Shown one piece after another: positions 10,522 to 41,514 of a stretch of DNA of 43,901 nt. A program made the translations under genes and the position numbers. This DNA comes from Planctomycetia bacterium. Its GTDB lineage: Bacteria; Planctomycetota; Planctomycetia; Gemmatales; HRBIN36. The stretch lies in contig JAEUIE010000004.1 of assembly GCA_016795155.1 (NCBI GenBank), positions 1-43,901 on the forward strand, in the 5' to 3' direction. Each line of letters opens with the position of its first letter. The stretch's first letter is position 1. The notes beneath the pieces are model-generated. The model was not told the DNA's origin and did not search any database. It saw only the letters and a program-made list of their open reading frames with translations.

Positions 10522-10583
10522 GTTCAAAGTGGTCCATTTTTCGAGACGATTGACGACATTGGCAAAATATGTCAAACCTACGT

Positions 10584-12356
10584 CTACGGAGCAGAAAAGG
10601 CAGGAATGCAAAAACCAGGTAAGTTCGCTTCTTGGGTCAGCATCCCCGACTTTGCCGCAGCCCGCAATTCCAATATTGTTGCTGTATCTATCCAGGACTT
10701 CAACAAGCTTTTGGCTTCTGCTGAGTTCAGCAGAACGAGCAACTCCACCGCACGCTGATGACGGAGATGTTCCATTTGTAAAGTAGGAAAATGCATGAGC
10801 ACCGATTGTGCACTTCTTTGAAGCACGGACTGGTTATTTTGGCTCTGGATTCGCAATTCCTTCCTCGCATTGTCCCCAGCAAGTAGTAATCGTTCAATCG
10901 CAACATCGCGCTTTTCTGAATCGGCAAGTTGATTGATCCATTGATGAAGACTGGCTTGCGAGGGAGGCGTGTAGCGTTCCTTGAGGAACTCCACGCAACC
11001 TTGTCTGTCCTCTAACATGCTATATGCGGCCTGCCAAGCAATGGCAGCATTTTCGGAAGCCAAGTCATTCCATGCACGAATCATTACGGAACGCGGTTTT
11101 ATCTTGGTTGCTGGGGGTGTTGATCGAATATTCCACAAAACAATCAGTGCATCCTTGGCTGAAAATGCTCCGAACCATTGGCCATCAGGGGATAGTTCCA
11201 TCAGAAGCAATTCAGGAACCTTTGGATCTAGCATAACTAGACGCGTTCTGGCGCCAGGCCATTCGCACCACGCAAAGCGTGCGTGTTGATCACCGTTGTG
11301 GCCCAAACTCAGAAACGCCACATAGCTCATTCGATTTGGAGCAATTGCCAAAGGACCAGCAGTTATTGTCAATGGACGGACCTCGCCAGCTTTCAAATCG
11401 GTGTTTGATTGACGCAATTTAGTGCAATTCGGCATTTCTAATTCCTGAGTTAACCTCCCATCCGACAGAAACAAGCTTCGATGATCACTACTGAGGTGAA
11501 AGCGTGGGCCTGGTTTGAGTGGAACATCGGCTTGACGTTCTCCAGTGAGGAGATGACGAGTCTGTTGAAAGAAGATGACGCTTTGTGTTTCTGAAGGGAA
11601 AATGGCTTGCGCATACTGGTAAGTTGGCGGAATTTCGATGGTTTTCTCCCACCGTAATTTTCCAGAGGCTGTATCCCACATTTGAATACGGCTGGTGTTG
11701 ACACGAAAAGGGGGAGAAGTCGGACGCACGGGAAACAATTGCAAAAACAGCGAGCCTTCATCTGGCGAGAAATGATCGATGATGTGGCCAATTTCGCTAA
11801 TCTCGCCGCCCAAAGGCAGCTCTTTGTGTGATCCGTTTGACAAATCGTATAAGACAAGGTGATCCTTGAAATTGTCCTGTATTAGGTATCGGCACTTGGA
11901 TGAAAGTCGGTGAACTAGTGTGACTTGGGGATAGACGGTTTCGATCCGGGCATTCCGTTTTTTGTGGTGTTCAGTTGCCACCTTGCACTCCACGACTTTA
12001 TCCAGGTTCCCCGTTTGCAAATTCCAGTTGCACACACGTCCTCGTCGATCCACGGTGACAACCGCCTTGCCATCCGGTGTAAACCGCAAGGATTCAATCA
12101 TTGAATTCATGAAATCCTTGTACGGATGTCCCGTAGTGATTGGGATGCGTTTTGTAGGATTTACGGTCGCCAGGTCTTTCCAATCAATCGTTCCATTATC
12201 TTGAGCCGCGGATCGCTGCATGATCCCAAGTAATAGAATCAAATACCAAATTGCTCGACTGTGAGTTTGAGAGCACTGCAATCGTTTCCCAGCTACAATA
12301 ATTTTTTTGATTGTGCCGATTCGATTGTAAAGCAGAGGGTAAGCAAATGTGCACAT
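10584..12356 (-). CDS. Secreted WD40-like protein with C-terminal helical region
   Basis: The frame is open from a TTG at 12377; the first ATG is at 12356, which I use (590 aa). A hydrophobic segment (AIWYLILLLGIM, then QRSAAQ-DN) acts as a late signal peptide or anchor near residues 35-55. Propeller-type blades follow: LRFTPDGKAVVTVDRRGRV, CNWNLQTGNL, IQMWDTASGKLRWEKTIEI and MELSPDGQWFGAFSAKD, then LIVLWNIR. The last 170 residues (from WNDLASENAAIAWQAAYSML) are helical and contain HEAT-like units, as in many planctomycete WD40 proteins with an 'A(W)DDLAxxDAxxAYxAxxxL' module. No function can be assigned. Confidence 0.65.
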   Translation of the reverse strand: MCTFAYPLLYNRIGTIKKIIVAGKRLQCSQTHSRAIWYLILLLGIMQRSAAQDNGTIDWKDLATVNPTKRIPITTGHPYKDFMNSMIESLRFTPDGKAVVTVDRRGRVCNWNLQTGNLDKVVECKVATEHHKKRNARIETVYPQVTLVHRLSSKCRYLIQDNFKDHLVLYDLSNGSHKELPLGGEISEIGHIIDHFSPDEGSLFLQLFPVRPTSPPFRVNTSRIQMWDTASGKLRWEKTIEIPPTYQYAQAIFPSETQSVIFFQQTRHLLTGERQADVPLKPGPRFHLSSDHRSLFLSDGRLTQELEMPNCTKLRQSNTDLKAGEVRPLTITAGPLAIAPNRMSYVAFLSLGHNGDQHARFAWCEWPGARTRLVMLDPKVPELLLMELSPDGQWFGAFSAKDALIVLWNIRSTPPATKIKPRSVMIRAWNDLASENAAIAWQAAYSMLEDRQGCVEFLKERYTPPSQASLHQWINQLADSEKRDVAIERLLLAGDNARKELRIQSQNNQSVLQRSAQSVLMHFPTLQMEHLRHQRAVELLVLLNSAEAKSLLKSWIDTATILELRAAAKSGMLTQEANLPGFCIPAFSAP

Positions 12357-12377
12357 GTTTGTTCTCAGTCGATTCAA

Positions 12378-12692: not shown

Positions 12693-12907
12693 GGGTTCAT
12701 CCGCACATTTGGTGAGAGCCTTTCCCCAACCCAACATCATGAATGTAACTTGAGGAGGGATTAGGCTGCTGCGAGGAAGCGAATTCGTAACAAATCGAAG
12801 TTGCCTCGGCCGTACATCTGTCGCTTGATCAGTTTCAGTCGGTTTATCTGTCCTTCCAGTTGTCCATTACTCCACGGAAGCGCAATGTCAGCTTGCACCC
12901 CTATTAG
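12693..12907 (-). mobile_element. ISL3-family insertion sequence remnant (transposase 3' end plus terminal repeat)
   Basis: On the minus strand, codons down to TAA 12763-12761 encode ADIALPWSNGQLEGQINRLK, then LIKRQMYGRGNFDLLRIRFL. This is the conserved C-terminal end of ISL3-family DDE transposases (SNGxxEGxxNxLKxxKRxxYGRxxFxLLRxR). About 45 bases past the stop, GGGTTCATCCGCACATTTGG (plus strand, 12693 onward) resembles the ISL3 terminal inverted repeat. The frame is lost upstream of about 12907, so only one end of the element survives. Confidence 0.7.
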
Positions 12908-12957
12908 GCCAGCATCTTGCACCCCAGCTATGCCAAGCTGCTGGAAAAGGTCGAAGA

Positions 12958-13086: not shown

Positions 13087-16000
13087 TCATTTGTTCACCA
13101 ACAAAATGCTTCGTAACTCTCTTGGGATATTATCAAACTCCAAAATGTAGCTATTAGATCGCGCGGCCTTACTGATTGGATCAATAATATCTAGTCCACG
13201 TTCGAGCACGTACAAATTTTCTCCATTAGTAACACTGAAGTACGCATAGCGCATGTGGATTGGTGAGTAATATGCAGAGAGAATGTCCACATTACCAGTT
13301 ACGCTTGGAACAACGTTGAGACATGCTTCAATTTTCTTCTTCTGATCTATTGCGTTAAATTGATCGCCTTTTGAGATGTCAGCGATTTGAGTCACAATTG
13401 TCACTTTGACTGGTTGGCCTCGTGTCCATGGAATCGAGGTAAGAAACTGTAATAACGCATTGATTTGATGATTTTTACGCAGATAAGGATCTTGAATAAC
13501 CAGTTCAGTAATGTTCTGATCCTCAAGTCGCGTGAGCACCTTCTTAAAATCCACCTTTTCACCCTTGTGAATTGGATGGACTTTGCAGCCTGGTTGAGCA
13601 CGGAAGAGTTTTTCAAGTGGTAATGGCTCGGCATAGGAGGCGAACCAGTCATCCAGAGCAGATACTGCGAGATTCAGCTGATTGGAGGATCTTGTATGCC
13701 AGAGTGGTTGTCGGTGAGTAATCGAATTGAACACAGTTGTTCGGTTATCACCCCAATGAAACCCAACAGACTTCGGTCCTATTTGGTTGGGGTGATCGAG
13801 TGAAAGAAGAGCCATGGGTGGCATCGGAGCACTCGGTTTCACACGGAATAGCTCGACTCCTGCCTGGGCGAGTGCAAGCAAATGAGCTGGTGGAACGGTG
13901 CTTGATGTATCCCATTCCCGTATAGCAATTCGGACACGATGGCCACTACGGAAGGCGGCTTCAACGACAGGCAAGTGCCACGGTCCAAATTCTGGTGGAC
14001 CATCATATTCGAATCGTTCCACGACGAGGTCGAGACGTACAGCATTGCAAATGGCTGTGCGTAGTGCGTTCCCTGCATCAGGTAGATCGTAAGGTCGCAC
14101 ACTGTCGGTTTCGTACAGTGAGAGAAAGGAAGCAAGATATTCGGCTACGGGACCGCGAGTAAGTTGTTCGTGACAAAATTGGTTGCGATAACTTCGTAGA
14201 CACGCGTAGCACGATGCAGATTCACTGCATGTACAGTTCGCCACCCTTGCATGAGCGGCTTCCAGAACTCGCTTGAGTTCATCTTCATCGGCGAGTCGTA
14301 GACAGTGTCCAGCACCACCTGGTACATCATCGAAAATAACCACTTCTTGCGCTCCTCCGGCTGGAAGCGGACGAATCACGCCATTGATATCGTTCGCTTC
14401 GATTCCGAGCGCATCGGTCATTCCACCCAGAATGGCAAATTGCAAACTGTACCAGAACCCCAAATTGTTGCGATCGTACCCACTTCCGGAGAAAACTAAT
14501 CTTGTAGCAGAAGAACGAAACTCATGGGCGAGATGAACCATGTCATAATTCTTGCCATTACATGGCTGACCGTACGGAGTGTGATGACTTTCTACTTCTT
14601 TAATTGCGTTTTTACCTCTACCACTAGTTTTCAACTTGACTTCCCGCATGCAGTATTTGCACAAGAGAAACCCTACACCTCTATCATCATCCCCTGCGTT
14701 AAAGACGAAGAAATCAGCTTGCTCTGTTGTGCGAACCGTAACACTCCGGCTGGCATTTCCCAATTTACAACGCACGGGGTCTTCGAGTTCCTTTTGGGGA
14801 TCGAACAACACTTGGGATGACCGAATCCGATGTGGTTTGTCGAACGACAGGTCATCGCCATTTTGCATTAGATCCGTAGTGAAGCCGTATTCAGGGACTC
14901 GGTATAAATGTCTACGGGAGATAGGTTCATTACAAACAGGGCAGAAATCGCCTGGGAATACTTCTTCAGGATTCAAACTTCTCATAACGTGGCTACATAC
15001 TTTGCATTTGGCATACCATTTTTCCTCAAATTCCTTGTGTCGCGGTTTCTTGATGCCAATACTTCTCCACAACTTGCCACGGGCAACAATTTCAGATCCC
15101 GGCACATACTCAGAGAGTGCAAGTCGTAAATCACGCTCCAGTTTTAGTCCGCGATCAGCTGTGTCAAGTGACACGTTGTATATAGGAAATGCGTAACTCG
15201 GTAGTACCACGCGATCGCTGAAGAACGATACCCAGTCGGTTTTCTCGAAACCCTCAAGGCGTCCTTCAAGGCGGTATGCCTGCCTGGAAATAGATTCAGC
15301 TCGCTGGCTCTGTTTCTCTTTCCTTGCTTTCAACTCATCGTTACGTAAAGCGTCGATAGCTTCGCGATAGGATTCCACTTCCGAAGAGTAGTACTCACGA
15401 GCTTTACGAATGCTTTCGGTGATCTTTTCCGCGATCCGGTTCGGCTCGAACATTCCATTGGGAACAAGTTTATGGATTGTGTCAGCATTTCGTGAGATGG
15501 CTTTCGGCAGGTCAGCTAAAAAGGTATCAGTCGGCGTTGGCTGCTGATTCGGAAAGAAATGCTGTATCTGTGACAACACCTTACCATTAGAAGCACTATT
15601 CCTCACAAATTCCGCCAGGAGTACGGCAGCGATGTGCCTTTGGTAAATCAACTCGTTCCGCAACCCTACTCGTGGTGGCCGTGCCACTGCTTCGATGAGT
15701 AATGGCGGATTGGAATAATGATGTTCATCGTGCGACCTAGATTGAACGAAGGTTACAACCATGGCAGCTGTACCCACACCTCGCCCCGCCCGACCTGCAC
15801 GCTGTTGATAGTTCACAACCGAGGGTGGTACATTTCTCAGTAAGACCGCTTCGAGGTCTCCTAGGTCAACCCCCAGTTCGAAGGTGGTTGAACTACTTAG
15901 CACATTGATTTGGCCTACCTCCGGATGATGACCATCCTGAAACGCAGTCTGATGGTTAGTGGCAAGTTGAGGACCGAGTTGGGCGGTGTGTTCCCGTGCC

Positions 16001-18858
16001 ACGAGAGGGATAGGGCCACGTTCGGTTGAAACAAACCAGGTTCTATAGAAATGATCGGCAAGACTATCCTCGGGATTGGTGAAGATCAAATGTCCGGTAC
16101 AACGGAAGCTCGAACAAACGTCGTATACATTGTTGACGGACCACTGACGGCATTTGCTGCATTTATTCCACGCTACTGATGATCGCAGCCGCAAGTTGTT
16201 CCAGTGAAGTCGGAAACCAGTCGTACCCTTGTCCAGTGTTGACCGGCTCAGTATCGGGAATGCACCGGTTGTAAGTGATTTCCAGATCTCGTCTAGCAAG
16301 GTGGTAATCTCATCGTCCGCGGGAGCGGGAATCCCTTTCCGCTGAGAGGCTGCAAATAACACATTCTTCAAGTAGGCGGCCCGCTTTTGCAGATGTGGTC
16401 GTACCTCGGGCGCCCAACCATGCAGGGTAAATCGACCCGCAACTTTTTCACTGCCTTGTGCAATAAATGCATGTTGGCCTTTTGCAAACCCGAATGCAGG
16501 GTCTTCGGGCGTGATCTCGTCTGGGAACTCCATGGCGAGAGTTTGGCGGAAGGATGATAGCAGTACTTGCACCGTAGTAGTTAGATCGTCTTCGGATAGC
16601 CATTTCAAGAGAGCACTAGGCTTGGCCCATTTGGAGAGATCGACTTGACAGGCTATGAGACCGATTGCTTCGAGTGATTCTCGTCGACTGGCTCGCCCAC
16701 AGAACTCTAAGGCTGCCGCCAAAGTACATTTCTTCCGCTTCTGCCCTGGTGGTTCATCTGGCTTGAACAATCCTGCATCGTTTCCAATCCTCACCATACG
16801 GTCGATTACTGAATCGGCATCGGTTTCGCCATTAGATGCAGATCGCCGAAACGCCTGGTATACAAGCCATCGGTACACATTGCCGTCGTTATTGTTTTCC
16901 AGATACGGGGCAAAATACGCAGCCGACTGGCGGCTGTCGGCAAATGTGAGAAGCTTTCGCCCTCGGCCGGGATAACAAAGGGCATCTTCGTTCATCGATT
17001 CCGGCAGGCAGCAGTAGAATACTGAGGTCAATACGGCCTGTGCCGCATCGGAGTCTGCACGAATGCCAGTAACGGAATCCTTGCCACCACAACACACGCA
17101 CTTGTCAAGTTCATCTTTTTCACAAGCCAAATCCCACAGCTTGATCTCTTCCGGATTAGGTGATTCCTGACGCAACTCGCGGTATTTTCCATTTGTGATG
17201 TGCCAGCCGCAGAGTATGAAATCGGTATTTTCTTCTTCAACCTCGTCGGATTCATCGTTAGAGTTTTGTACAGGTTCGGCCCATGTCATCCATGCCCATC
17301 GGCTACCTGTGTTCCACCCTCCAGGCAATAACATCCGCCCCTTAACATCCTCAGCAATTCGTCCTCGCAGATAGGGTTGACCGCATTTACGGCAGGCATA
17401 CAGTTCCAACGCTAACCGGCCATCGTCAGTCTTTCTCGTTGGGTCAAGGTGGAGCATTGGGACTGCGTTGCCCGTGACGGATTCAAATGAAACGCTTGCC
17501 CCGCTCAATCCACGAACGAAAAGGTGATATCGGCACGGCGCCAATCGGACATCGCTGTCAGGCACCTTAGCCTTTGTCGCTACCCGTACAATCCCGCAAA
17601 GTTGATCGATGGCTTCCGGCGTATCTGAACCGATCACTGCCTTTGCCGCGGTTGCCAAATCCGACGGATGTTCAGCGATATCTCGGAGCAAATGGATTCG
17701 CTTGTCATGCTGAAAGACCAGGAATAGTCCTTCCTCGATGTTAACTGCACCGACCTTGGCCGCTTCATCAACAAGCTTTATCGGAAAGCCGCTAGCCACA
17801 AGTACGCTTGTCAACTGGGGAGTCCACTTCGCTCGTGGTTCTGTGGCTTGTTTTACAGCCGGATGAACATATACCGTCGATTGCGGTGTGATGCTTCCTG
17901 AGATACTAGCGTGTTCTCGCTGCGCGGCGATCAGGTCACCTGAATCGAAATGTGCATTAAACAAGTCGCGGGCGAATTGAAGCACATCTTCCCGGCGTTT
18001 AGGATCACTGGTGCCGAGGCTTGCACTGGTTGCAATGTACTGTGGCGGCTTCTGATCAGCAGTCTTTACCCTAGCCACCAGGCGTCGCAGTAACAAGGCC
18101 ACCTCGCCCCCTTTGGTTCCACTATAGGAGTGGGCTTCATCTACCACTACAAATCGCCAGGGTCCGTTAAATAACGGTGAGTCATCTGCTCGGAGGAGCA
18201 AATACTCCAGCATGGCGTAATTGGTAATTAGTACATGGGGTGGATTCTTGCGAAATATCTCTCGGGAAATTACTTCGTTTGGTAAGGCATCTGGATAGAG
18301 TCTTTCGGCGCTCTTTTGTGATTCCGGAGTGACCTCACTGTTGATGTAGCGGCCAAATCGAATACTTGGTGTGTGCTGCAATATCCGCCGGAGGTTTTTC
18401 AATTGATCATTCACCAGCGCGTTCATTGGATAGAGCAACAACGCGTGAATACCCGGTTCTGGATTCTTAATGATCGACGATAGAATAGGTGCGAGAAATG
18501 CGAGCGTTTTACCGCTACCTGTTCCGCTCGAAACAATAACGTTCCGGCCAGATATACATCGTTCGATAGCCTGTACCTGATGCTGATAAAGTGGTCGATC
18601 GGCAGGAACAAGTGGCAGTTCTTTCAGTTTTTCTGGTAGTAGTCCTCGTTTGACCAGATCCGCCACGCTTGCACCCAGTACATAGGGTGCAAGACCGTGC
18701 AGATACGGTCCACGAAACAATCGCCCTGGTTCTTCGAGACGTTGCCGAAATTGCAATCGCAGATTTGCATACTCTTCTGGAAAATCAAACGCCGTACGGA
18801 GATATTGCCGGAATCGCGTCTTGATCGTTTCGGCTGTCTGGATAGGGTCGATCGCCAT
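13087..18858 (-). CDS. Giant MrfA/YprA-like SF2 helicase with DUF1998-type Cys cluster and PLD-like C-terminal domain
   Basis: This 1923-aa protein starts at ATG 18858, with GGAG 9 bases upstream. A superfamily 2 helicase core is split by a long insert. Motif Q-like YQHQVQAIERC (about 91-101), Walker A GTGSGKT (112-118) and DEAH (240-243) are in the first RecA domain. TTFELGVDLGDLEAV and QQRAGRAGRG (about 980-1020) are in the second. The insert carries CRKCGQPYLRGR and CVCCGG zinc-type pairs. Near residue 1550 a cluster CTCSESASCYACLRSYRNQF (continuing C) matches the DUF1998/MZB zinc site of MrfA (YprA) repair helicases. The last ~210 residues hold LVIQDPYLR and HMRYAYFSV...ERGLD, resembling a phospholipase D-like fold with an altered HxK motif (HMR). 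Size and domains recall DruE and DrmA/DrmB-type defence helicases. It is the last gene of a five-gene minus-strand cluster. Confidence 0.85.
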   Translation of the reverse strand: MAIDPIQTAETIKTRFRQYLRTAFDFPEEYANLRLQFRQRLEEPGRLFRGPYLHGLAPYVLGASVADLVKRGLLPEKLKELPLVPADRPLYQHQVQAIERCISGRNVIVSSGTGSGKTLAFLAPILSSIIKNPEPGIHALLLYPMNALVNDQLKNLRRILQHTPSIRFGRYINSEVTPESQKSAERLYPDALPNEVISREIFRKNPPHVLITNYAMLEYLLLRADDSPLFNGPWRFVVVDEAHSYSGTKGGEVALLLRRLVARVKTADQKPPQYIATSASLGTSDPKRREDVLQFARDLFNAHFDSGDLIAAQREHASISGSITPQSTVYVHPAVKQATEPRAKWTPQLTSVLVASGFPIKLVDEAAKVGAVNIEEGLFLVFQHDKRIHLLRDIAEHPSDLATAAKAVIGSDTPEAIDQLCGIVRVATKAKVPDSDVRLAPCRYHLFVRGLSGASVSFESVTGNAVPMLHLDPTRKTDDGRLALELYACRKCGQPYLRGRIAEDVKGRMLLPGGWNTGSRWAWMTWAEPVQNSNDESDEVEEENTDFILCGWHITNGKYRELRQESPNPEEIKLWDLACEKDELDKCVCCGGKDSVTGIRADSDAAQAVLTSVFYCCLPESMNEDALCYPGRGRKLLTFADSRQSAAYFAPYLENNNDGNVYRWLVYQAFRRSASNGETDADSVIDRMVRIGNDAGLFKPDEPPGQKRKKCTLAAALEFCGRASRRESLEAIGLIACQVDLSKWAKPSALLKWLSEDDLTTTVQVLLSSFRQTLAMEFPDEITPEDPAFGFAKGQHAFIAQGSEKVAGRFTLHGWAPEVRPHLQKRAAYLKNVLFAASQRKGIPAPADDEITTLLDEIWKSLTTGAFPILSRSTLDKGTTGFRLHWNNLRLRSSVAWNKCSKCRQWSVNNVYDVCSSFRCTGHLIFTNPEDSLADHFYRTWFVSTERGPIPLVAREHTAQLGPQLATNHQTAFQDGHHPEVGQINVLSSSTTFELGVDLGDLEAVLLRNVPPSVVNYQQRAGRAGRGVGTAAMVVTFVQSRSHDEHHYSNPPLLIEAVARPPRVGLRNELIYQRHIAAVLLAEFVRNSASNGKVLSQIQHFFPNQQPTPTDTFLADLPKAISRNADTIHKLVPNGMFEPNRIAEKITESIRKAREYYSSEVESYREAIDALRNDELKARKEKQSQRAESISRQAYRLEGRLEGFEKTDWVSFFSDRVVLPSYAFPIYNVSLDTADRGLKLERDLRLALSEYVPGSEIVARGKLWRSIGIKKPRHKEFEEKWYAKCKVCSHVMRSLNPEEVFPGDFCPVCNEPISRRHLYRVPEYGFTTDLMQNGDDLSFDKPHRIRSSQVLFDPQKELEDPVRCKLGNASRSVTVRTTEQADFFVFNAGDDDRGVGFLLCKYCMREVKLKTSGRGKNAIKEVESHHTPYGQPCNGKNYDMVHLAHEFRSSATRLVFSGSGYDRNNLGFWYSLQFAILGGMTDALGIEANDINGVIRPLPAGGAQEVVIFDDVPGGAGHCLRLADEDELKRVLEAAHARVANCTCSESASCYACLRSYRNQFCHEQLTRGPVAEYLASFLSLYETDSVRPYDLPDAGNALRTAICNAVRLDLVVERFEYDGPPEFGPWHLPVVEAAFRSGHRVRIAIREWDTSSTVPPAHLLALAQAGVELFRVKPSAPMPPMALLSLDHPNQIGPKSVGFHWGDNRTTVFNSITHRQPLWHTRSSNQLNLAVSALDDWFASYAEPLPLEKLFRAQPGCKVHPIHKGEKVDFKKVLTRLEDQNITELVIQDPYLRKNHQINALLQFLTSIPWTRGQPVKVTIVTQIADISKGDQFNAIDQKKKIEACLNVVPSVTGNVDILSAYYSPIHMRYAYFSVTNGENLYVLERGLDIIDPISKAARSNSYILEFDNIPRELRSILLVNK

Positions 18859-18914
18859 GTATAATTACTCCAACGATCAATGTGGCTGAAGCAGTGTTAA
18901 CGTCTAATGATCGC

Positions 18915-19394
18915 TTAACATTCCACTTTATTTGATGCGATCAGCATCGCTCTCTGTTCGATCAGTTCTCTCGTGAGTTTAAACTCGTGGCGGCATAATA
19001 CCCTCAGGATCCGTTCATACCAGGTGGCAGCTTCTGCCTTACCAGATTCCTCAATTCTTGAGTGGAGTAATTGCTGTGCTATCAGAAGCAATTCGAACGC
19101 CTCTTCTTCTGATGGTCGTTCTTCAAGGCCGGTAAGCCATTCTGGAAGCACTTCTGCGAATTCCTCCGCCCAGTTGTCATTGTGTTTAGGTGGAGGAGAA
19201 TCACCCCATTGCAACATTTCTGTCCATTCATTTTTTTGTTTGTCAGGAAGTGAATGAAGATCGAATAAATTAGGAAAACGACTTCTAATATTCCGCAGGT
19301 CGAGTACTGGCAACTTATACATTTCCTGCTGATATGTCTCAAAGGAAAGGAGATTGCTACTGATACGCAAATTACTGAGGGCATACTGTTTCAT
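18915..19394 (-). CDS. Small acidic helical protein between Hsp70 and helicase (159 aa)
   Basis: ATG 19394 has AAGGA 9 bases upstream. An upstream TTG start (19454) would overlap the Hsp70 gene and lacks such a site. The product begins MKQYALSNLRISSNLLSFET and continues with acidic, Trp-rich helices (WAEEFAEVLPEWLTGLEERP, EEEAFELLLIAQQLLHSRIE, KLTRELIEQRAMLIASNK). I recognise no family. It lies 25 bases after the Hsp70 stop and 56 bases before the helicase start, so it is a member of the same operon. It may be an adaptor or client-binding subunit; that is a guess from position only. Confidence 0.6.
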   Translation of the reverse strand: MKQYALSNLRISSNLLSFETYQQEMYKLPVLDLRNIRSRFPNLFDLHSLPDKQKNEWTEMLQWGDSPPPKHNDNWAEEFAEVLPEWLTGLEERPSEEEAFELLLIAQQLLHSRIEESGKAEAATWYERILRVLCRHEFKLTRELIEQRAMLIASNKVEC

Positions 19395-19419
19395 GGGATC
19401 ATTCCTTAAATGGAAAGTA

Positions 19420-20976
19420 TCATTGAGCAGTAAGGGTTGGTAGGACAAATCCAAGTTTGAGTGACTGAACCCACTCGGTCACCGTTGGTTCTTGTGCTTC
19501 TGGCGGCAAATGTATTTTCAATTGCTTCGCACCAGCCGCTTTGATTTCCAACGTAAGATGTCGATTAACCTTGAGCTGCACCCAAAGATACTTATCATTT
19601 GAATCGATCGGAATGGTAATGAGGCGAAGCAAACGCCCCGCCGGATGGGTGACATGGTCGGTTTGGTCGCAAATAAGAAGTCGGGCAACCATCGAGGAGG
19701 TGTTCGTCACTAACAGGTCAATACTCTCCGGTTTGTCAAACTGAACTCGATCGCCTCTCTTAAACACTGGCAGAAACTTTCCATCACTATGGCCATCGGC
19801 CAACCGAATGCCGATATCCGCCGAATACGTTGCCTGGGCTCGATGGCCTGCGAGCATGGCTGCACCTATGGCCGTTGCATTACCGATGTCATCCAACCCC
19901 CCACTAGCAGATGGTGCTTTCAACATTTTCGGCAATTGGAGTGTATTGGTGAGCCTGTCACCATAGTCACTCGCCAAGCGATTTTGAATTTCCTGAATGT
20001 TACAAGTCCCGCCCGAAAGAAAGAGCCTCGCAAGTGTTCGTGGGGTTACCAAACTGGAATTCAAAACTCGGTCGAGTCGATCCATGCTGCCATGGAGATC
20101 AGGACCGATCAATTCAGTAAAGTGATGTTTAGTGAGTTCGTATTCCAGGAGCCATTGATCGTAAAAATCAAGCACGCTGATAAGACTCGAATTATTGTTA
20201 CTAAGCTGTTCTTTGGCGAGATTGGATTGACTCAGCAATAACAACCCCCATGGAGGTCGATCAAGGATCTGATCAGCCGTTAATCTCAACAATGCAGGTT
20301 CATCATAATGTTGAGATAAAAATGCATTCGTTGCTTGTTCGGCAATTAAACGGTCAAAGTGCGTTCCGCCACGATGCCAGCCGACCACTTCGCGGGTTTG
20401 TGCAATGCCGTTTCGTACTTCCACCGCCGCAATATCAAGGCTTCCACCACCCCAATCGAACACGGCTGCTACTCCACTTACCGGCTGCGCTATTAATCCT
20501 GCATAGATGGCGGCTATCGGTTCAAAATAGAAGTGCGTTATTTCAACGCCTGCCTGTTTAAATGCACGCAGTAATCGCTGGCGAGCGAGAAGTGGAAAAT
20601 TCACTGGAATGGTAACTGCTGCTTGGTTCAGTGGTATTTTTGGTAAGTGTTTACGTGTTTCTTGTACGATACTATTCACAAAATCGGTGACTGCCTCTTC
20701 TGGCGTTCTGCCATATCCATTGCCCAGGTCTACTTCCTGTTCCGATGTGAGCGACCATTTCAACGATTTCGGAAATCGAACAAGCGGTGACTTGCAATCA
20801 ATCGCAGCGAATCCGATCGTGGCAGGTACTGAACCTCGATACGCTACCGTGGTTGGAATCTGATAGGCCAATTCGTTGTGGCGTCCAGGAAAGGGCACCA
20901 TTTGGATGGTCGAGCCATTGAAATATGCAACGCGAGTATTGGTGGTACCGAAATCTATGCCAAAAGCGGGCTGCAT
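19420..20976 (-). CDS. Divergent Hsp70 (DnaK-like) ATPase
   Basis: This is a 518-aa actin-fold ATPase of the Hsp70 family. Phosphate-1 motif GIDFGTTNTRVAYF is at residues 6-19. The connect-1 region has YFEPIAAIYAGL and the phosphate-2 loop is VFDWGGGSLDIAAVEV, where normal DnaK has DLGGGTFD. The adenosine motif is LFLSGGTCNIQEIQ near 345, followed by ATAIGAAMLAG. About 130 residues remain for a beta-rich substrate-binding domain (SADIGIRL ... LLVTNTSSMVARLLICDQ). The long helical lid of DnaK is missing, and DnaK itself is about 640 aa. It lies between a coiled-coil gene (21-base gap) and a small acidic protein gene. In this setting I infer an ATP-driven switch controlling the neighbouring proteins rather than general protein folding. 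Confidence 0.85.
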   Translation of the reverse strand: MQPAFGIDFGTTNTRVAYFNGSTIQMVPFPGRHNELAYQIPTTVAYRGSVPATIGFAAIDCKSPLVRFPKSLKWSLTSEQEVDLGNGYGRTPEEAVTDFVNSIVQETRKHLPKIPLNQAAVTIPVNFPLLARQRLLRAFKQAGVEITHFYFEPIAAIYAGLIAQPVSGVAAVFDWGGGSLDIAAVEVRNGIAQTREVVGWHRGGTHFDRLIAEQATNAFLSQHYDEPALLRLTADQILDRPPWGLLLLSQSNLAKEQLSNNNSSLISVLDFYDQWLLEYELTKHHFTELIGPDLHGSMDRLDRVLNSSLVTPRTLARLFLSGGTCNIQEIQNRLASDYGDRLTNTLQLPKMLKAPSASGGLDDIGNATAIGAAMLAGHRAQATYSADIGIRLADGHSDGKFLPVFKRGDRVQFDKPESIDLLVTNTSSMVARLLICDQTDHVTHPAGRLLRLITIPIDSNDKYLWVQLKVNRHLTLEIKAAGAKQLKIHLPPEAQEPTVTEWVQSLKLGFVLPTLTAQ

Positions 20977-20997
20977 GTCACTAATACCTGACAGGTC

Positions 20998-22242
20998 TCA
21001 GTTGTTTAGAATCGGAATGACTTCGGTTTCTTGAAGAATAAGGTAAATATCACGTAACCGTCTCCGAACTGTTTTTTCTTCGGGGGTCTTTGCCTTATCA
21101 GGAAACCCTGGCTCCGCTGCTTCTGCAATGCGTGGCTGAATCTTCCGACACAGTTCTGCGCGAAATGCATTTACTGCTGCTTCAGCTTGTCGTTGGCACT
21201 GATGTAAGTCCTGCTCAGCTTGCACTTGAATCTGCAGGAGTTTTGCATTTGTTTTTTCATGTTCTTGCTTTGCCAACTCGAGCTGATCCAGTGCTGCGTA
21301 CAACTCGCTTTCCAGTTCCGTAACTCGATGACGTGCATCGTCACGCTGCCTCTCGACGTCCCCCAGTTTCTCCTCCAGTCGAAGAACTTTGTCGGGGTCT
21401 ATGTAATGCTGCTCCAGTTTGGTCAGGCGTTTTTCGTGACTTTGCAGTTGTCCTTGATAATCCACACATTTCTTCAGAAATTGATTCATACTATCTATCA
21501 AGGGGATAATCGATTCATTGTTTGAATCTACCTTGGAACCGGTTTCCATCCAAGTATCTGTTGTTGACCTTTGTTCTGTTGCCTGAGCCTCCGATGATCC
21601 TTCTTCTGTTAACTCGACGCTGACTTCTGCCGGCTTGGAACTGGAGGCAGGCAACCTCAGTTGTTCCATAAATTGTTTTGCCTGAGTCTGGAGTTCCTCC
21701 GACCAACGACCTTTTACAGCATCCAAAAGATCTATTTGCTCATCCTTGTTCAGGGCTTTCCAGCCTGCATGGTTGACTATTTTGGTCCGCAGGTTTGGTG
21801 TTTGTATTCCGGCAAGTTCCCGGAGTTTCTTTCCAACAGTATCATGGATGCGGATATCCTTTGTTCGACACCATGCCACCCAGGTTTTCCAGAGCAACTT
21901 ATCACGTTCTGCGAAAGTATTTTTTTTTGAGATTCGTTGCTCGAGGTTAAACAATAATTCCTGCTGTTGTTGATTTTCCCAACCATCGAAACTCTTAGGG
22001 TCACTTACAAGCAAAACCGCAGCCTGCAGAAAGTTCTTTCTTACATTGAGATCATCCTGTTGAGCTAGTTTGGATATGAAAACTGTTCGTGAATCCGGTG
22101 ATGCCATCAACTCGGTTACTAGTTGACTTGCCTCTTCCAGTGATAGAGCCGAATCCATTTTTTCTGTTTTTTTCTTGTCATGGCCTTCGCCTGCCTTTTG
22201 AACTTTTGCAAGCATTTCCAGCCATCGATCTTCGATTGTCAT
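20998..22242 (-). CDS. Coiled-coil protein, possible Hsp70 partner (GrpE-like role)
   Basis: The 414-aa product has an N-terminal helical domain (about 1-200), a Ser/Glu-rich linker (about 200-250), then a long coiled coil (YQGQLQSHEKRLTKLEQHYI, LEEKLGDVERQRDDARHRVT, ELESELYAALDQLELAKQEH). The tail is AEAAVNAFRAELCRKIQPRI ... VRRRLRDIYLIL. A long coiled coil followed by a short folded tail directly upstream of an Hsp70 gene suggests a nucleotide-exchange-type partner. The sequence is not a clear GrpE match by eye, so this rests mainly on context. Its start overlaps the stop of the 979-aa gene in an ATGA junction. Confidence 0.55.
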   Translation of the reverse strand: MTIEDRWLEMLAKVQKAGEGHDKKKTEKMDSALSLEEASQLVTELMASPDSRTVFISKLAQQDDLNVRKNFLQAAVLLVSDPKSFDGWENQQQQELLFNLEQRISKKNTFAERDKLLWKTWVAWCRTKDIRIHDTVGKKLRELAGIQTPNLRTKIVNHAGWKALNKDEQIDLLDAVKGRWSEELQTQAKQFMEQLRLPASSSKPAEVSVELTEEGSSEAQATEQRSTTDTWMETGSKVDSNNESIIPLIDSMNQFLKKCVDYQGQLQSHEKRLTKLEQHYIDPDKVLRLEEKLGDVERQRDDARHRVTELESELYAALDQLELAKQEHEKTNAKLLQIQVQAEQDLHQCQRQAEAAVNAFRAELCRKIQPRIAEAAEPGFPDKAKTPEEKTVRRRLRDIYLILQETEVIPILNN

Positions 22243-25178
22243 TGTGATTCTTCCGTTCGTTCGCTGGTTTTGGGGAACTCGGCAATAATTACACCTAGCA
22301 TCCAGTCCGGTCCCTCGTGAAGGACAGCATCCTGTGCCAATCTGTAATCATTCTGCATTCTTGTCAAACGTGCTCTTAGCAATGGTAGAGCAGTATGGAA
22401 ACCACGTCCACCGGATAGAATCTGATCTCCTGCTTGAACATGCAAATCGCCACCTGCCATCCTCAAAATAACACGTACCAGTTCTGCATCTCTAGCACAA
22501 ATCAGCGGTGGTACGGGGTCGAGCAAAGAAAAGTGTATTTGTTCCCATTTCGTCACAGGCGTTCTCAAATACCTGCCTGCCAGCCGTAATCCCTCAGCCC
22601 AACGTCGTTGCATTGGCATCAGATCTGCTCGAAGCGATTCGGCGAGTTCTTCAGTCTGCAGGAATCCGATCAATTCTCGTAGCAAAACCGCTTCTGACCT
22701 TGCAAACCAATCAGGATTTGTTCGAAGGTAATCGAGAATTTGCTTCTGCGCTGAGGAAAGCGCTTCAGCTAGATGTGTTGGACGGTAGAGATTATTCCGA
22801 GCAAAACGATACCAACACTCTGCCAACACAGCTTTAAAATCTGGATGCTCATTTCCTCGAGCTCTTATTGCATTAACGCGTTCTAAATCCCATATACCTC
22901 CACGTCGGATGTCAATCAGTTCTGCAAGCGGCGTTGCTCCAGGGATATCGCCACGAAGGGCGAGTTTGTGAACCTCCTCGGTGATAAGAGTTGGAAGATC
23001 AGAACTCGTTAATAGGGTTGTTCGTGCTGCAGTAAGCAGAAGTCGATCTGCCCACTTGGCTTTCTGATACTCGTTCCAACATTCAGCGACAATAGCCGAA
23101 GTGTTATGTTCATTATGTGAAGTCTCCTCAAGTCGTTTGAATAGTTCGTCAACTCGAGTTGACTTTGTTGGCCTCGGCAGGTCTGGAGCAGGATCAGGCG
23201 TTATTACTGGAGAAGGGGGTGTTGGAGCTGCACCTTGCAATTCAGCAACTGTTATCCACCTGCCACTCAGGAACACTTGGACTTTGCCGCCACATTGCCC
23301 CCAAACATCCCGCCATCGATGAAGTGGAATTTCAAATAATTGCGATGGGTTGCCCCCATCGACTTTAATGAAGACTTCTCGTCCATTTTCGAGTCGTATT
23401 ATTAAACGATCACGATCCATCTGTGGCGGTGTCAGGAACTCCAACTGAATCCGCTCGTTCAGTCCAATCGCATCCAGATCAATTCCTTGAAGAGGAAACA
23501 ACTGCCATTCGGACATTTGACTCGTAGGTAAAATCATTCGCCCTCTATTTACAGCAACCCTTACTCTGATTTCCCATCCGTCTGGATGTCGAGCAATTAC
23601 ACCAGGAGATCTTGTGGGATTCGTTGTCCGTAGTATCCAATCACCTTTGTTAGGTCGAATATCAGAATCTTCCCCAGATATATATTTTCCGCCGTCGACT
23701 CCTTTCACACAAACCGCCATCGCCTTATCTGGTTGAATAGGATCATGGATGTATTCCAAATTCATCTGCGGTAATCGAGTAAAAGTCCGAGTCGGCAAGC
23801 GTCGGTCGGGAATGTCTGGCCAGATCACAGAAAGTGAGAAACGACCGTAACTATTTGTGAGTGTGGGGATCGTGTTCAAATCAATTGGTTCTGTACTTGT
23901 AATTCTCTTATTAACATCAATTCTGCGCGTCACATCACTGATACGGAGAATTGCATCAGCAGGTTGAATATGCACCTTAGGCCAGGATCCGAGATAAACG
24001 GGGTAAGAATCGGCCCAGCGTATTGGTACGGTGGGCGCTTCGGACAGTTCCCAGACACATTCTTGGTTTGATAACACTTGGTAACCAGGGATACACGAAC
24101 CTGGTTTCACGGTGATGCGTCGACCTTCCCATCCAGTCCAGAGCATTGGTCTCTGGAACGAGTGTTCTAGTGGAATGACGCCATCAAACGATTGACCTTG
24201 ATGGATCAGCGCGAGGTACTCACCGGGTAACAAGCGATCTGATTCGGTGTCATTGATAAGCTCACCGTTCAGGTGAAATAGAACAATCGAAGGTTTGTTG
24301 GTGGGTAGATAGAAGGACCATGCAGTGGTATTTTCACCAATAAATAACAGAATGTGGTAAGAATTTAATGGCGGAAGTGATTTACTTGTCTGCTTTGGAG
24401 CTACTCCCCTACTTGCAGAGAGTGGAATGGTTTGGCCGTTGACGTCCCAACGTATACGACCAATATTCGATGGGAAATTCTGTTCGGGTAGGACAGCTAC
24501 AACTTGCTGGAGTTCTGTATCCCAGACGATGTTGGGGGCACGCAACTTTAGTGTAGTTTCAACTAAAGGAACAGGTGGTGGTGGTTCGGCATCAAGCCAT
24601 TCTTTCAGCCATTTCAGAAATGGGCGATCCTCGATGTCTAGAGAAGCCATGCCGACCACTTGAGCTAACCGCCAAAGAACGACGTCCTTTCCCCGTTGGT
24701 AGAGATAATCGTGGAATGAATCGCGTTTAAAACTGCCGATGTGTTCCTTCGTGAGTCGTTCAAATTCAACTTGTGAAATATTAGCCAACCAATTTAAATC
24801 AGAGATTGTGTTTATTTTTTTGAGTCGGTGAAGGAACTCACGAGCGAAAACCAATTTTCTTTTACCTTCGTCGTGGAGGATTGAATTAAGACCAGTAACT
24901 CCAGCTTTTACTGCCCACTGCGATAATCGAAAAACGATTTCCTCAAAATTACGCTTTACCGGTGTTTCTATACCACTACCACCGGTATAGATCCATCCTT
25001 TGTTTTTGAGTTGCAGCAATAGATTCTGCGGAACTTCCTTCCCATCTTTTTGCAGATGATATTCGTTAAGGTATTCCAAGCCTTCACGACGAATTTGCCA
25101 TGTACAGAACCCTTCTCCAAAAAGTGATCCCTTAATGTACCAATGGCCGTCATCTTCACTTTGATGCAATATTGGCAT
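22239..25178 (-). CDS. Large protein of unknown function, first gene of the Hsp70-helicase cluster (979 aa)
   Basis: I do not recognise this protein. It starts at ATG 25178 and opens with HWYIKGSLFGEGFCTWQI, then helical segments to about residue 200. A long beta-rich middle follows (about 215-640; for example SYGRFSLSVIWPDIPDRRL, GDWILRTTNPTRSPGVIARH and REVFIKVDGGNPSQLFEIPL), suggesting several Ig-like or carbohydrate-binding-type domains. A proline linker (PTPPSPVITPDPAPDLP) near 655 leads to a helical C-terminal domain rich in Arg/Leu (about 690-979). No transmembrane segment or nuclease motif is visible. The 4-base overlap with the next gene indicates translational coupling. It may be the sensor or target-recognition subunit of the cluster; that is inference. 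Confidence 0.6.
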   Translation of the reverse strand: MPILHQSEDDGHWYIKGSLFGEGFCTWQIRREGLEYLNEYHLQKDGKEVPQNLLLQLKNKGWIYTGGSGIETPVKRNFEEIVFRLSQWAVKAGVTGLNSILHDEGKRKLVFAREFLHRLKKINTISDLNWLANISQVEFERLTKEHIGSFKRDSFHDYLYQRGKDVVLWRLAQVVGMASLDIEDRPFLKWLKEWLDAEPPPPVPLVETTLKLRAPNIVWDTELQQVVAVLPEQNFPSNIGRIRWDVNGQTIPLSASRGVAPKQTSKSLPPLNSYHILLFIGENTTAWSFYLPTNKPSIVLFHLNGELINDTESDRLLPGEYLALIHQGQSFDGVIPLEHSFQRPMLWTGWEGRRITVKPGSCIPGYQVLSNQECVWELSEAPTVPIRWADSYPVYLGSWPKVHIQPADAILRISDVTRRIDVNKRITSTEPIDLNTIPTLTNSYGRFSLSVIWPDIPDRRLPTRTFTRLPQMNLEYIHDPIQPDKAMAVCVKGVDGGKYISGEDSDIRPNKGDWILRTTNPTRSPGVIARHPDGWEIRVRVAVNRGRMILPTSQMSEWQLFPLQGIDLDAIGLNERIQLEFLTPPQMDRDRLIIRLENGREVFIKVDGGNPSQLFEIPLHRWRDVWGQCGGKVQVFLSGRWITVAELQGAAPTPPSPVITPDPAPDLPRPTKSTRVDELFKRLEETSHNEHNTSAIVAECWNEYQKAKWADRLLLTAARTTLLTSSDLPTLITEEVHKLALRGDIPGATPLAELIDIRRGGIWDLERVNAIRARGNEHPDFKAVLAECWYRFARNNLYRPTHLAEALSSAQKQILDYLRTNPDWFARSEAVLLRELIGFLQTEELAESLRADLMPMQRRWAEGLRLAGRYLRTPVTKWEQIHFSLLDPVPPLICARDAELVRVILRMAGGDLHVQAGDQILSGGRGFHTALPLLRARLTRMQNDYRLAQDAVLHEGPDWMLGVIIAEFPKTSERTEESQ

Positions 25179-25366: not shown

Positions 25367-26683
25367 TCAGCTTTTCTGCAACAACTTCAGCGTTGCAGCC
25401 ACACGAGCATCAAGATCCAGTTTCAGATCATTCGCACACTGCTCGATGAGTTTCCCACTGCTCTGGATGGTACGTGCCTTGGTCGCCATATCGGCAATCC
25501 TGTCCGACCAGGCACCCAGAGCGTCAAGATGGTCCTGGATCTGCTGTAAATCAAGCTCTCCCGCTTCCTCTTTCCGACTCGCAGCAACTGCCAGGGCCCG
25601 TGCGATTTTGTACGCACAATCCAGGAACATGGGCTGTTTGCCAGTGGCTATCTCCGCTTTGTCAACCGTAACATAGAAATCTTCGCCAATACGTCGGAAG
25701 TCACCAACTTCTGCAGGCTCATTTCCACGAGTGTAGACATAAATACCACTGACAGCATCCCGGTTCTTCTTGGCCTCCTGAAGCTCGTCGATCGCGTCTT
25801 TCAGTCGCAGGGATTGATCTTTGACTTCCACGACGATACGCAACCCAGGAGCTCCACTGGTCTCACCCAGCGTAGCCACGTAATCCCCCTTCTTGCAGCG
25901 ACTAATAGCGCCAACCGTTCCACGTACCAACTCCGTGTCATCACCCAACTGGCTGCCGGCTTCAGCGAACACTCCGTACAGGTCTTCCTCGAAGACTATA
26001 CCCTTTACGTGCCCTTTCTCAGCCTCCGCTTCCGTCGCAGCCTTGATGCCCAGCGATTGATTAAGCTGGGCATAGAAATCGGACAGCATTTCCTTGAGTC
26101 GGCTCATAGCAGAACCGTCTGTATCGAGAGAAAACTGCTTTAGGACCTCGTTGAGCTTGGCTTCCACCAGTTCCTGAACGCGGGTTTCTATCATGGCAAT
26201 AACTCCAGACTTGTTCTGCGGGTCAAGAGCTTTGCCAAACGTGCTCTGCGGCCCGATCTGGGCCTGCATCAACCGTGACAGTTTTCCTTCAGTTGGATCG
26301 AAGTAGGTCTGAAATGTCCGTGTGATTGCCCCCTTGTCGCCAAACACCACGTCTATCGATCGCGGCACCACGCCATCATTCTCGGCGAAGTAACGCACGA
26401 GATCGTCACTTACTTTCTTTTGAAACTCGCCCATCTGTTCCTTCATGCGGGTTTCCACTTCGGCAAACTTTGCCTGGACAACCTGCGTATCCAAAGTCGG
26501 GCTGGCTGACTGAATCGCGATCACGCCAACTTTAATCGCTTCCAACGCTTTTTCGCACTGAACTTCCTCGTCCTCGAACTGTGCCAGGTACGCCAGGATA
26601 TTGCGGTCATTTATGATCAGGTGCAGGTCAAGACTGGAAAGGACATCGGACTTGAGGACATGATTGTTAATTGCGGTGTGCAT
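25367..26683 (-). CDS. PD-(D/E)XK nuclease-like protein with coiled-coil N-terminus
   Basis: ATG 26683, with GGAA 9 bases upstream, begins MHTAINNHVLKSDVLSSLDL. A longer frame from a GTG at 26806 adds 41 residues of poor coding character and is not used. The 438-aa product has a long helical N-terminal part (EVETRMKEQMGEFQKKVSDD; SRLKEMLSDFYAQLNQSLG). Near residues 265-300 is KKGDYVATLGETSGAPGLRI, then VVEVKDQ. This is the spacing of a PD-(D/E)XK active site (D ... E-x-K), with a following helix SLRLKDAIDELQEAKKNR. The C-terminus is helical. I infer a DNA-cleaving or DNA-binding accessory protein. It stands alone between intergenic gaps of about 190 and 230 bases. Confidence 0.6.
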   Translation of the reverse strand: MHTAINNHVLKSDVLSSLDLHLIINDRNILAYLAQFEDEEVQCEKALEAIKVGVIAIQSASPTLDTQVVQAKFAEVETRMKEQMGEFQKKVSDDLVRYFAENDGVVPRSIDVVFGDKGAITRTFQTYFDPTEGKLSRLMQAQIGPQSTFGKALDPQNKSGVIAMIETRVQELVEAKLNEVLKQFSLDTDGSAMSRLKEMLSDFYAQLNQSLGIKAATEAEAEKGHVKGIVFEEDLYGVFAEAGSQLGDDTELVRGTVGAISRCKKGDYVATLGETSGAPGLRIVVEVKDQSLRLKDAIDELQEAKKNRDAVSGIYVYTRGNEPAEVGDFRRIGEDFYVTVDKAEIATGKQPMFLDCAYKIARALAVAASRKEEAGELDLQQIQDHLDALGAWSDRIADMATKARTIQSSGKLIEQCANDLKLDLDARVAATLKLLQKS

Positions 26684-26913
26684 AGCGTGATTTCCATAGA
26701 GAGTGGTGGGTGTTGTTGGAATGGAATAATTGCAGTCGGTGTGCCAAAGATGCGTCAACAACAATGCAGGAAGCGCAACTACCATAAGAGCAATCAGTTG
26801 CGACACAAGAATTTCGATTTATCGTCAGTTTGCCGAACCGCCCTAGTACAACGTCAGTTATGTTGAAACAAATCTAGTTGTTAAGTTCCTACAAGGTACC
26901 AACGCACCAATGG

Positions 26914-27822
26914 CTACCTGAGTCTACCTGCAATCCTTATGAGCTTTGTCTTGTCGTTTTGTCGAACTGAATCATACCGATTGAGGAGAGCGTCACTGTC
27001 ATTTTGCGACAGCAGAGTTAAAGTATCCTGATTTCTGCTTGAACGCTCATTTGCTTCATCCAGGCCTTCTCCGAGTTGAACTCCTCCTCGGTCAGTCAGT
27101 ATGTATCGATTGTGAAGTTCCTCGTGATTCCATCGAACGATAGTCAACATCATTCCCTCGGGTATCACATTTTCTAGATGTGCTTGGCAGGCAATACCAA
27201 AATTAGTAGCACTCGCCAGGACTCTATGGCTTAGATGAAGTTCGATGTCAACTGACCGCACCCTGCCGTATTGGTCGAGAAAGCAATTCAATATCTCCCG
27301 TAAGGGTTCACGAAAGCGCATAATATCAGGAGAGAAATTACGATCCACGATCACAATTTTCTTGGATATCTGAAGAAGCAAACGGATGGATCGTGCCATC
27401 TCTACCGCTGTTCTGACAACTATTTTGGAAGGGCCCGCTCTTAAGGGAATTGGAAGTGCTGTCACATCTAAAGCATTACCATCAATTACTTCAGAATGTC
27501 CGGCAACCTCACTATTGGCAAGAATTGCTTCAAACGGTTTGCGTCTGTGTTCACTCAGTACATTAGTCAGCCAGGTCGATGCATCCTGCCACATTCCTTG
27601 CTCCCGTGACAGCAGAACTGACTTAGCCGCACGGGCTAATGCTTCTATTATTCTGTGTCTTTCCACTTCGCCACATGTCAGATTCTCGAGAACAAGAAGC
27701 TGCCATTTTTTTGGAAACCTGGAAATTAAACGACCATTTGGAACACCAAACAAGCTGATGTATCTCTGGAATCTGTCCCAGTTACTAAGTAGTGATGGCT
27801 CCAGTGCGTATTCTTTGATCAT
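26914..27822 (-). CDS. PLD-like (HKD-type) protein paired with the AAA ATPase
   Basis: This 302-aa protein overlaps the upstream ATPase gene by 4 bases (ATGA). The middle has KKIVIVDRNFSPDIMRFREP, a strand-helix pattern. Near residues 235-255 is EELHNRYILTDRGGVQLGEG, then LDEANERSS. This 'HxRYxLTD...GLD' arrangement is common in phospholipase D-like domains of bacterial conflict systems, with H and D kept and K replaced by R. The N-terminal 150 residues are helical. I infer a nuclease or sensor effector activated by the ATPase. ATPase plus PLD-type pairs are a frequent layout in defence islands, but I cannot name this exact pair. Confidence 0.6.
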   Translation of the reverse strand: MIKEYALEPSLLSNWDRFQRYISLFGVPNGRLISRFPKKWQLLVLENLTCGEVERHRIIEALARAAKSVLLSREQGMWQDASTWLTNVLSEHRRKPFEAILANSEVAGHSEVIDGNALDVTALPIPLRAGPSKIVVRTAVEMARSIRLLLQISKKIVIVDRNFSPDIMRFREPLREILNCFLDQYGRVRSVDIELHLSHRVLASATNFGIACQAHLENVIPEGMMLTIVRWNHEELHNRYILTDRGGVQLGEGLDEANERSSRNQDTLTLLSQNDSDALLNRYDSVRQNDKTKLIRIAGRLR

Positions 27823-29558: not shown

Positions 29559-29598
29559 CGGTGATCCTCTGCATTAGGGAATCGACTATCAACTAAGC

Positions 29599-29964
29599 TC
29601 ACTTTCCAAACGGCCGAAACCAGACGGGTTGAGCTTTGAACTTCGGCTTTACCGGTTTTGGAAATCGTTTGGGCTTGCCTAACATCCATTCGTAGTCGTC
29701 GTTTTTCCGGTTGTAAATGCAATCTACAATCTCGACGGTTCCCACGATCACACCACGAGGTAATGGATCAAGGTCATACCCAACATCATCAGAAAACTCT
29801 GCTTCCAATGTCTTCGAGTATCTGCCCAGGCTGGCATAAAGATAAACTCGGCCCCGGATGTTCGTGGGTATGCTGCGATACTCGATCTTTTTCTTGCCTC
29901 GCATGACCTCCTCTGCCCAAGGTTGACGGAGAGATAAGGCAGGCAACTTTTCCGGTTTGTTCAT
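29599..29964 (-). CDS. ASCH domain protein
   Basis: ATG 29964 is preceded by AAGGAG 10 bases upstream, which decides the start over a longer frame. The 121-aa protein begins with a basic leader and PALSLRQPWAEEVMRGKKKI, then EYRSIPTNIRGRVYLYAS. This is the ASCH hallmark, with a conserved K/E-R-S pocket on a PUA-like barrel, followed by PLPRGVIVGTVEIVDC. ASCH proteins bind or hydrolyse modified nucleosides or act on RNA; some are N4-acetylcytidine amidohydrolases. The stop lies 40 bases before the AAA ATPase start, so it may be the first gene of that operon. A role in recognising modified nucleic acid would fit the context but is not shown. Confidence 0.75.
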   Translation of the reverse strand: MNKPEKLPALSLRQPWAEEVMRGKKKIEYRSIPTNIRGRVYLYASLGRYSKTLEAEFSDDVGYDLDPLPRGVIVGTVEIVDCIYNRKNDDYEWMLGKPKRFPKPVKPKFKAQPVWFRPFGK

Positions 29965-30115
29965 CTTGAAGAGTCTCCTTATCAAGAAAAATGCGATCGT
30001 AAACAAAGTGAACAATAGCACATCAATCAGTTACGACCATACCCACATGTGTAAGGTTGTTCAATTTCCATCCGCTCGCGAATGCCTGAAAAGGTCTCGA
30101 AGAATTTGACCGTGA

Positions 30116-31882: not shown

Positions 31883-31895
31883 GATTCTGCCCCCG

Positions 31896-35279: not shown

Positions 35280-35346
35280 CCCAGCATCGCCTCCAGTTCT
35301 TCGAGGTCGCTGGCAATCTCGCGTTCCAGCTTCTTGAGGCGGGCCA
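35276..35346. repeat. 71-bp direct repeat, copy 1 (hsdS side)
   Basis: Matches 36516-36586 with four mismatches over 71 bases. The two copies bracket the DUF1016 gene exactly. Identity stops abruptly at both ends. Confidence 0.85.
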
Positions 35347-35347
35347 T
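35276..35347 (-). pseudogene. Duplicated hsdM 3' tail (23-codon remnant) in front of hsdS
   Basis: From ATG 35347 to TGA 35276, the frame reads MARLKKLEREIASDLEELEA, then MLG. It differs from the true HsdM C-terminus ([20 protein letters not shown], then LG) at only two residues. The TGA overlaps the hsdS ATG. The natural reading is that hsdM once ran straight into hsdS here and was separated by insertion of the DUF1016 gene, leaving its original 3' end behind. The mini-frame might still couple translation into hsdS. Confidence 0.8.
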
Positions 35348-35379
35348 GGTCTTCGCTCTTTGACTACTTATGTCTAACC

Positions 35380-36519: not shown

Positions 36520-36586
36520 CCCAGCATCGCCTCCAGTTCTGCGAGGTCGCTGGCGATCTCGGCTTCCAGCTTCTTGAGGCGGGCCA
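36516..36586. repeat. 71-bp direct repeat, copy 2 (hsdM 3' end)
   Basis: This is the genuine 3' end of hsdM, including its TGA. It is repeated at 35276-35346 with four mismatches. Confidence 0.85.
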
Positions 36587-38066: not shown

Positions 38067-38072
38067 ACTGCG

Positions 38073-41474: not shown

Positions 41475-41514
41475 CAGTAAGTAGTCACCAATTCCGGCCA
41501 TGGCGACTGGCAAA

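Follow-up and report, generated by a model that had tools for sequence, protein, structure and literature searches.

The window, that is, the whole stretch of 43,901 nucleotides that was analyzed, carries on its minus strand five verified open reading frames (ORFs) between positions 13087 and 25178, whose products, in order from the start, are 979, 414, 518, 179 and 1923 aa in length. The genes overlap or are closely spaced (Table 1): those for the 979- and 414-aa proteins overlap by 4 nt, the gap between the 414- and 518-aa genes is 21 nt, and 56 nt lie between the gene of the small acidic protein and that of the helicase. Read from its TTG, the ORF of 179 aa shares 35 nt with the Hsp70 ORF, but its homologues start at a position corresponding to the ATG of residue 21 (19394), and with that start the gap is ~25 nt. 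Among the three proteins encoded between the first gene and the helicase gene, hereafter the module, Hsp70 is the only recognized domain: Pfam returned no match for the 179-aa protein, nor for the 979-aa protein, and only weak coiled-coil matches for the 414-aa protein. Sites resembling promoters occurred at the frequency expected by chance, and the frequency of terminator-like sites was also near that expectation.

Table 1. Features of the Hsp70-containing operon (positions in the window)
Feature	Position	Strand	Basis or remark
Gene 1, predicted divergent DruH, 979 aa	22239..25178	-	hhalign, hmmsearch, reciprocal match
Gene 2, coiled-coil protein, 414 aa	20998..22242	-	kept at same operon position in relatives
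Gene 3, lid-less Hsp70, 518 aa	19420..20976	-	Pfam HSP70, profile versus DnaK structures, alignment, tree
Gene 4, small acidic protein, ~159 aa from ATG 19394	18915..19394	-	ORF opens at TTG 19454
Gene 5, DruE, YprA-family SF2 helicase, 1923 aa	13087..18858	-	PADLOC, PDB helicases
DruE RecA1 domain, Walker A G112-TGSGKT118, DEAH 240-243	18007..18585	-	Pfam DEAD
DruE MZB/DUF1998 zinc-binding domain	14197..14442	-	Pfam MZB
DruE C-terminal PLD-like (MIT_C) domain	13177..13551	-	Pfam MIT_C

Relatives of the operon were found by an alignment-based scan, single-protein pattern scans having given nothing. All five genes occur in the same order in a Gemmataceae MAG (L052), at identities of 34% for gene 1, 27% for gene 2, 51% for the Hsp70, 45% for gene 4 and 55% for DruE. 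In a Firmicutes MAG (UBA2203), one contig holds gene 1, a J-domain ORF, a WD40 ORF, gene 2 (24% identical to that of the window), the Hsp70 and gene 4 (35%), the J-domain (HPD) and WD40 ORFs being inserted at L144:3688-5476. After gene 4 this contig has a short frame, MAIDPVV, that is like the start of the window's DruE (MAIDPI), and then runs into unrelated sequence; the Firmicutes DruE (45% identity) opens another contig and carries an in-frame stop. In this genome DruE and the module are therefore only presumed to be linked, and rearrangement or decay may have affected the locus. Since the gene order recurs in a genome whose proteins are only 27-55% identical to these, the five-gene array is not a chance arrangement. 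The preliminary description had placed five genes at these positions and proposed that they form one operon to be sought in other genomes; the ORFs, their spacing and overlaps and the shared order in the Gemmataceae MAG agree with that proposal, with all five genes recovered there and four together on one contig of the Firmicutes MAG. We are highly confident of the identity of the parts and of the conservation of the operon.

The 1923-aa helicase was identified as DruE on the basis of its PADLOC matches to DruE1 (6.4e-171, the best match) and DruE3 (2.2e-158, matched to residue 1897), those to DISARM DrmA (7e-13) and Dpd being far weaker. Pfam detected DEAD (residues 92-284, E 8e-25), Helicase_C, MZB/DUF1998 (residues 1473-1554, E 4e-13) and the PLD-like MIT_C (residues 1770-1894, E 3.5e-8), and a search of solved structures returned 9tu7, a 2108-aa helicase (2e-73), 9wae (1970 aa; 1e-31) and MrfA/YprA. 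The earlier reading of this protein as a helicase with MZB-type cysteines and a PLD-like end was therefore correct, and the family is that of YprA. Both the helicase motifs and the zinc cysteines are invariant among relatives in the alignment, and the end of the protein has a conserved HMRYAYF...RGLD motif that a motif alignment shows to be shared with the Gemmataceae MAG and locus L031. C-terminal PLD-like domains have been described for DruE of Druantia type III (PMC12458937), and the C-terminal region here, a putative nuclease, fits that description. The PLD-like end is missing from the Firmicutes DruE (L053), which stops before that region. Elsewhere in the window (26914-27822), beside a DUF3696 ATPase, a 302-aa protein with no Pfam or PADLOC match has an HNRY...GLD motif that resembles the PLD-like end of DruE.

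At most DruE loci examined, one large gene (~700-1650 aa) precedes DruE; in M. smegmatis a DruH of 1132 aa lies beside a DruE of 1667 aa (PMC13316683). A DruH family was built from the genes directly upstream of DruE at other loci, 61 of 66 of which form a single family that corresponds to DruH in size and position. Gene 1 and its relatives, as a profile of three sequences, matched these 61 members over 381 columns (hhalign prob 98.9, E 1.6e-17), and neither reversed and shuffled gene 1 profiles nor the other three module genes gave a score against them. In the opposite direction, the DruH HMM gave E-values of 3.7e-18 for gene 1 of the window and 7.1e-31 for that of the Firmicutes MAG (hmmsearch, with the three sequences as the database), and a reverse search from gene 1 matched a DruH of Fervidibacillus (L056) at 1.9e-5. 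Because the profiles match both ways and the controls were nil, we assigned gene 1, by sequence comparison, as a divergent DruH and not as the orphan it had first been taken for. The homology is remote, with ~10% identity and mainly the middle of the protein covered: it is the beta-rich part, from about residue 204 to 634, that can be aligned with the DruH core, and the C-terminal third is predicted to be helical, being TPR/ARM-like in the Firmicutes homologue. PADLOC did not match gene 1 to DruH. The AlphaFold model of gene 1 from a two-sequence alignment was poor (pLDDT 39-40), as was that of the Hsp70, and a fold search was for that reason discarded.

With the helicase being DruE and the first gene a divergent DruH, the sequences place the locus among Druantia III-like DruH-DruE systems, the module being an addition between the two core genes, and the preliminary view that it matches no defence system did not hold. 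Druantia type III (M. smegmatis MSMEG_1253/1254; E. coli) likewise has DruH first and a DruE with MZB/DUF1998 and a PLD-like C-terminus, but it consists of these two genes, whereas here three extra conserved genes lie between them and DruH is highly divergent. Druantia types I/II (type IV CoCoNuT) are also multi-gene DruE operons, and DruE1 is the best PADLOC match of the window; however, their DruABCD/DruMFG had no PADLOC match here, where a DruH-like gene and a PLD-like end are found instead. DISARM (DrmAB/C) shares the YprA-family helicase, MZB/DUF1998 and a PLD domain, but distributes them over separate DrmA, DrmB and DrmC PLD proteins; in the window all are in one chain, the DrmA match is weak and there is no DrmB gene. 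Its family membership makes it very probable that the locus is antiviral.

The 518-aa protein matched Pfam PF00012 (HSP70) at E 4e-19 and, as a profile against DnaK structures, at 2.4e-45. Its nucleotide-binding domain (NBD) is actin-like with the catalytic residues intact (G6IDFGTTN13, K73, E152, D174-W-GGG and D181), and the phosphate, connect and catalytic residues D8, T11-T12, K73, E152, D174 and D181 are conserved in all three operon Hsp70s in the alignment, such that ATP binding and hydrolysis are plausible. The protein ends ~140 residues past the NBD, without a DnaK-type helical lid (SBD-alpha), and a VLLL-type interdomain linker, judged against that of DnaK, is absent from all three copies. 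The C-terminal part appears to be a short beta-type domain, almost only strands in the low-confidence model (pLDDT 39-40, two-sequence alignment). The lid and a DnaK-type linker are needed for the classical Hsp70 client cycle, and with both missing that cycle would be altered in the operon Hsp70s. In a tree these three proteins form one clade (support 100/99) that is separate from the DnaK proteins of their genomes; its sister, and hence the nearest Hsp70 outside it, is that of the Paenarthrobacter plasmid pA (98/94, on a long branch). A divergent Hsp70 lacking the DnaK lid and distinct from the housekeeping chaperones, with which clustering was not seen, had been anticipated from the window and is what we found. 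As for the module's coiled-coil protein, its C-terminal helices are conserved; it may be a GrpE-like exchange factor, but the match is weak (prob 43-52% over just 31 columns) and the identification was not accepted.

The DruEs of the three module-bearing genomes group in a single clade (support 1.0) within the DruH-DruE (type III) family, and all three genomes of this subclade have the Hsp70. Outside it, DruE has no Hsp70 next to it at ~95 other loci, the exceptions being two actinobacteria. Helicase homologues without an Hsp70, named in advance as evidence against the association, are hence the rule in the family as a whole, while within the window's own subclade the association is complete. 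These data bear on the alternative that the module acts independently and shares no more than a defence island with the Druantia genes beside it. In its favour, the Hsp70 of Paenarthrobacter pA is flanked by predicted coiled-coil proteins, and no DruE is annotated in the 21 kb examined around it. The complete copies, however, have the module between DruH and DruE, other DruE loci lack it and the DruEs that have it are monophyletic, and we consider independence very improbable. In its own right, the plasmid locus (L008:8859-13103) encodes a predicted coiled-coil protein on either side of the Hsp70, and a methyltransferase-helicase-GIY-YIG cluster is nearby. Other plasmid Hsp70 matches were rejected as operon relatives, being DnaK-like or in other operons.

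The same distribution bears on the main rival explanation, that of a plain private chaperone which only folds or assembles very large proteins and has no role in sensing or control. Potential clients of great size (979-1065 aa and 1923-1947 aa) are encoded in the same operon, and the intact ATPase residues together with a J-domain ORF, which was seen with its HPD in the operon of the Firmicutes copy only, suggest a working chaperone cycle. Conversely, the ~95 loci without an adjacent Hsp70 encode DruH and DruE that are equally large, and the lid and DnaK-type linker are missing in all three copies. On balance we regard a purely folding role as rather unlikely.

A second type of Hsp70 module was found in the two actinobacteria, in which proteins of ~555 aa and ~265 aa accompany a fusion of Hsp70 with an NYN RNase domain. 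It lies between DruH and DruE in Microbispora (L106:5433-9972) and after DruE in Nonomuraea (L103:14650-19059). The likeness to the window is that an Hsp70 and two companions sit beside DruH-DruE; in contrast, the window Hsp70 is unfused and hhalign detected no homology between the actinobacterial companions and the window's module partners. As the actinobacterial Hsp70s and DruEs both fall in clades separate from those of the window, the two associations with Druantia look separate and the modules unrelated. Both are rare. The plain-Hsp70 module is known from three genomes only, which are distantly related and include MAGs: no further copy was found in 392 genomes of the window's phylum, 102 genomes of its order yielded only the Gemmataceae copy already found, 329 genomes of the phylum of UBA2203 gave no additional copy, and the viral contigs searched had no such Hsp70. 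Among 296 genomes of its phylum, Hsp70-NYN occurred in Microbispora itself only.

The operon is part of one co-directional defence array on the minus strand of the window, from ~12.4 to 43.2 kb. The remainder of the array (25367-43183) comprises an RtcR-like CARF-AAA-HTH activator, which leads it (PADLOC RtcR_PspF2, 1.7e-158), HsdR, HsdM, a YhcG nuclease, HsdS, GmrSD/HEC-05, ASCH and the DUF3696 ATPase (NsnB-like). The GC3 of the Druantia-Hsp70 genes is 38-47% versus 65-74% for the restriction-modification (RM) genes sampled, a difference in composition that suggests separate acquisition of the two. Just 3' of DruE (12800-12950, minus strand) is a broken frame that by eye resembles the C-terminus of an ISL3-type transposase, a possible mark of the island edge, and two proteins encoded downstream of DruE (9238-12377; 597 and 457 aa) weakly match WD40/beta-propeller domains.

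CoCoNuT superoperons that are led by RtcR and contain type I RM as well as Druantia III have been described, and in CoCoNuT type III an Hsp70-like protein, CnuD, occurs with coiled coils in such a restriction array (PMC11090510). This likeness of neighbourhood and of subunits raises the alternative that the window Hsp70 serves as an adaptor that binds nucleic acid or ribosomes, the role proposed for CnuD. CoCoNuT type III, however, has a McrB GTPase/HEPN, neither of which was found here, where the helicase is DruE; specifically, no match to a McrB-type GTPase (CnuB) was obtained among the window ORFs scanned. In addition, the Walker-A-like/ATPase motifs of CnuD Hsp70s are reported to be degenerate (PMC11090510), whereas those of the window Hsp70 are intact. 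An adaptor role is accordingly quite improbable. In the literature searched, only the CoCoNuT papers associate Hsp70/DnaK with Druantia or defence islands, and the combination seen here is undescribed there; the YprA paper makes no mention of Hsp70.

Hsp70s bind exposed peptides, and an Hsp70 could in principle serve as the infection sensor, binding free phage structural proteins or phage-damaged proteins and handing them to DruH or releasing it. Type III DruH-DruE is activated by a phage minor tail protein, and DruH and DruE interact (PMC13316683); DruH, which associates weakly with a baseplate protein, is considered a likely sensor of late phage structural proteins, with DruE the helicase-nuclease (PMC13192584). 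The nature of these triggers suits a sensing Hsp70, but the DruH-like gene has been retained and could sense alone, and the Hsp70 has no lid, so that this role seems improbable.

The explanation that we prefer as a whole, and to which we give about an even chance, is that of a chaperone-equipped Druantia III variant whose module controls DruH/DruE. The DruH-like protein would be the infection sensor, and DruE, with its PLD-like end, would attack phage DNA intermediates. The ATP-competent lid-less Hsp70, the coiled-coil partner and the small protein would bind DruH and/or DruE, and the nucleotide state of the Hsp70 might keep this machine inactive or assembly-ready until phage proteins appear, at which point the module would release it. 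That the Hsp70 gates DruH and DruE rather than merely folding them, in the sense of the preliminary idea of an ATP-switching chaperone in control of a nucleic-acid machine, is a tentative proposal, against which it must be set that Druantia III mostly functions with no Hsp70. We speculate further, as an unlikely idea, that the lid-less Hsp70 and its partners are an ATP-driven safety catch on DruH-DruE as a machine that destroys DNA, and that unrelated Druantia lineages gained their Hsp70 modules, with plain Hsp70 or Hsp70-NYN, separately to this end.

The DruH-DruE backbone was already known, and it is the embedded, conserved Hsp70 module that makes this locus a new Druantia III-like variant. 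Its gene 1 widens DruH to include highly divergent members that go undetected by PADLOC. With a conserved Hsp70 encoded between sensor and effector, ATPase mutants offer a genetic handle on how Druantia stays silent until infection, and the finding of two separate associations of Hsp70 with DruH-DruE suggests that chaperones are linked to this family of defence systems more generally.
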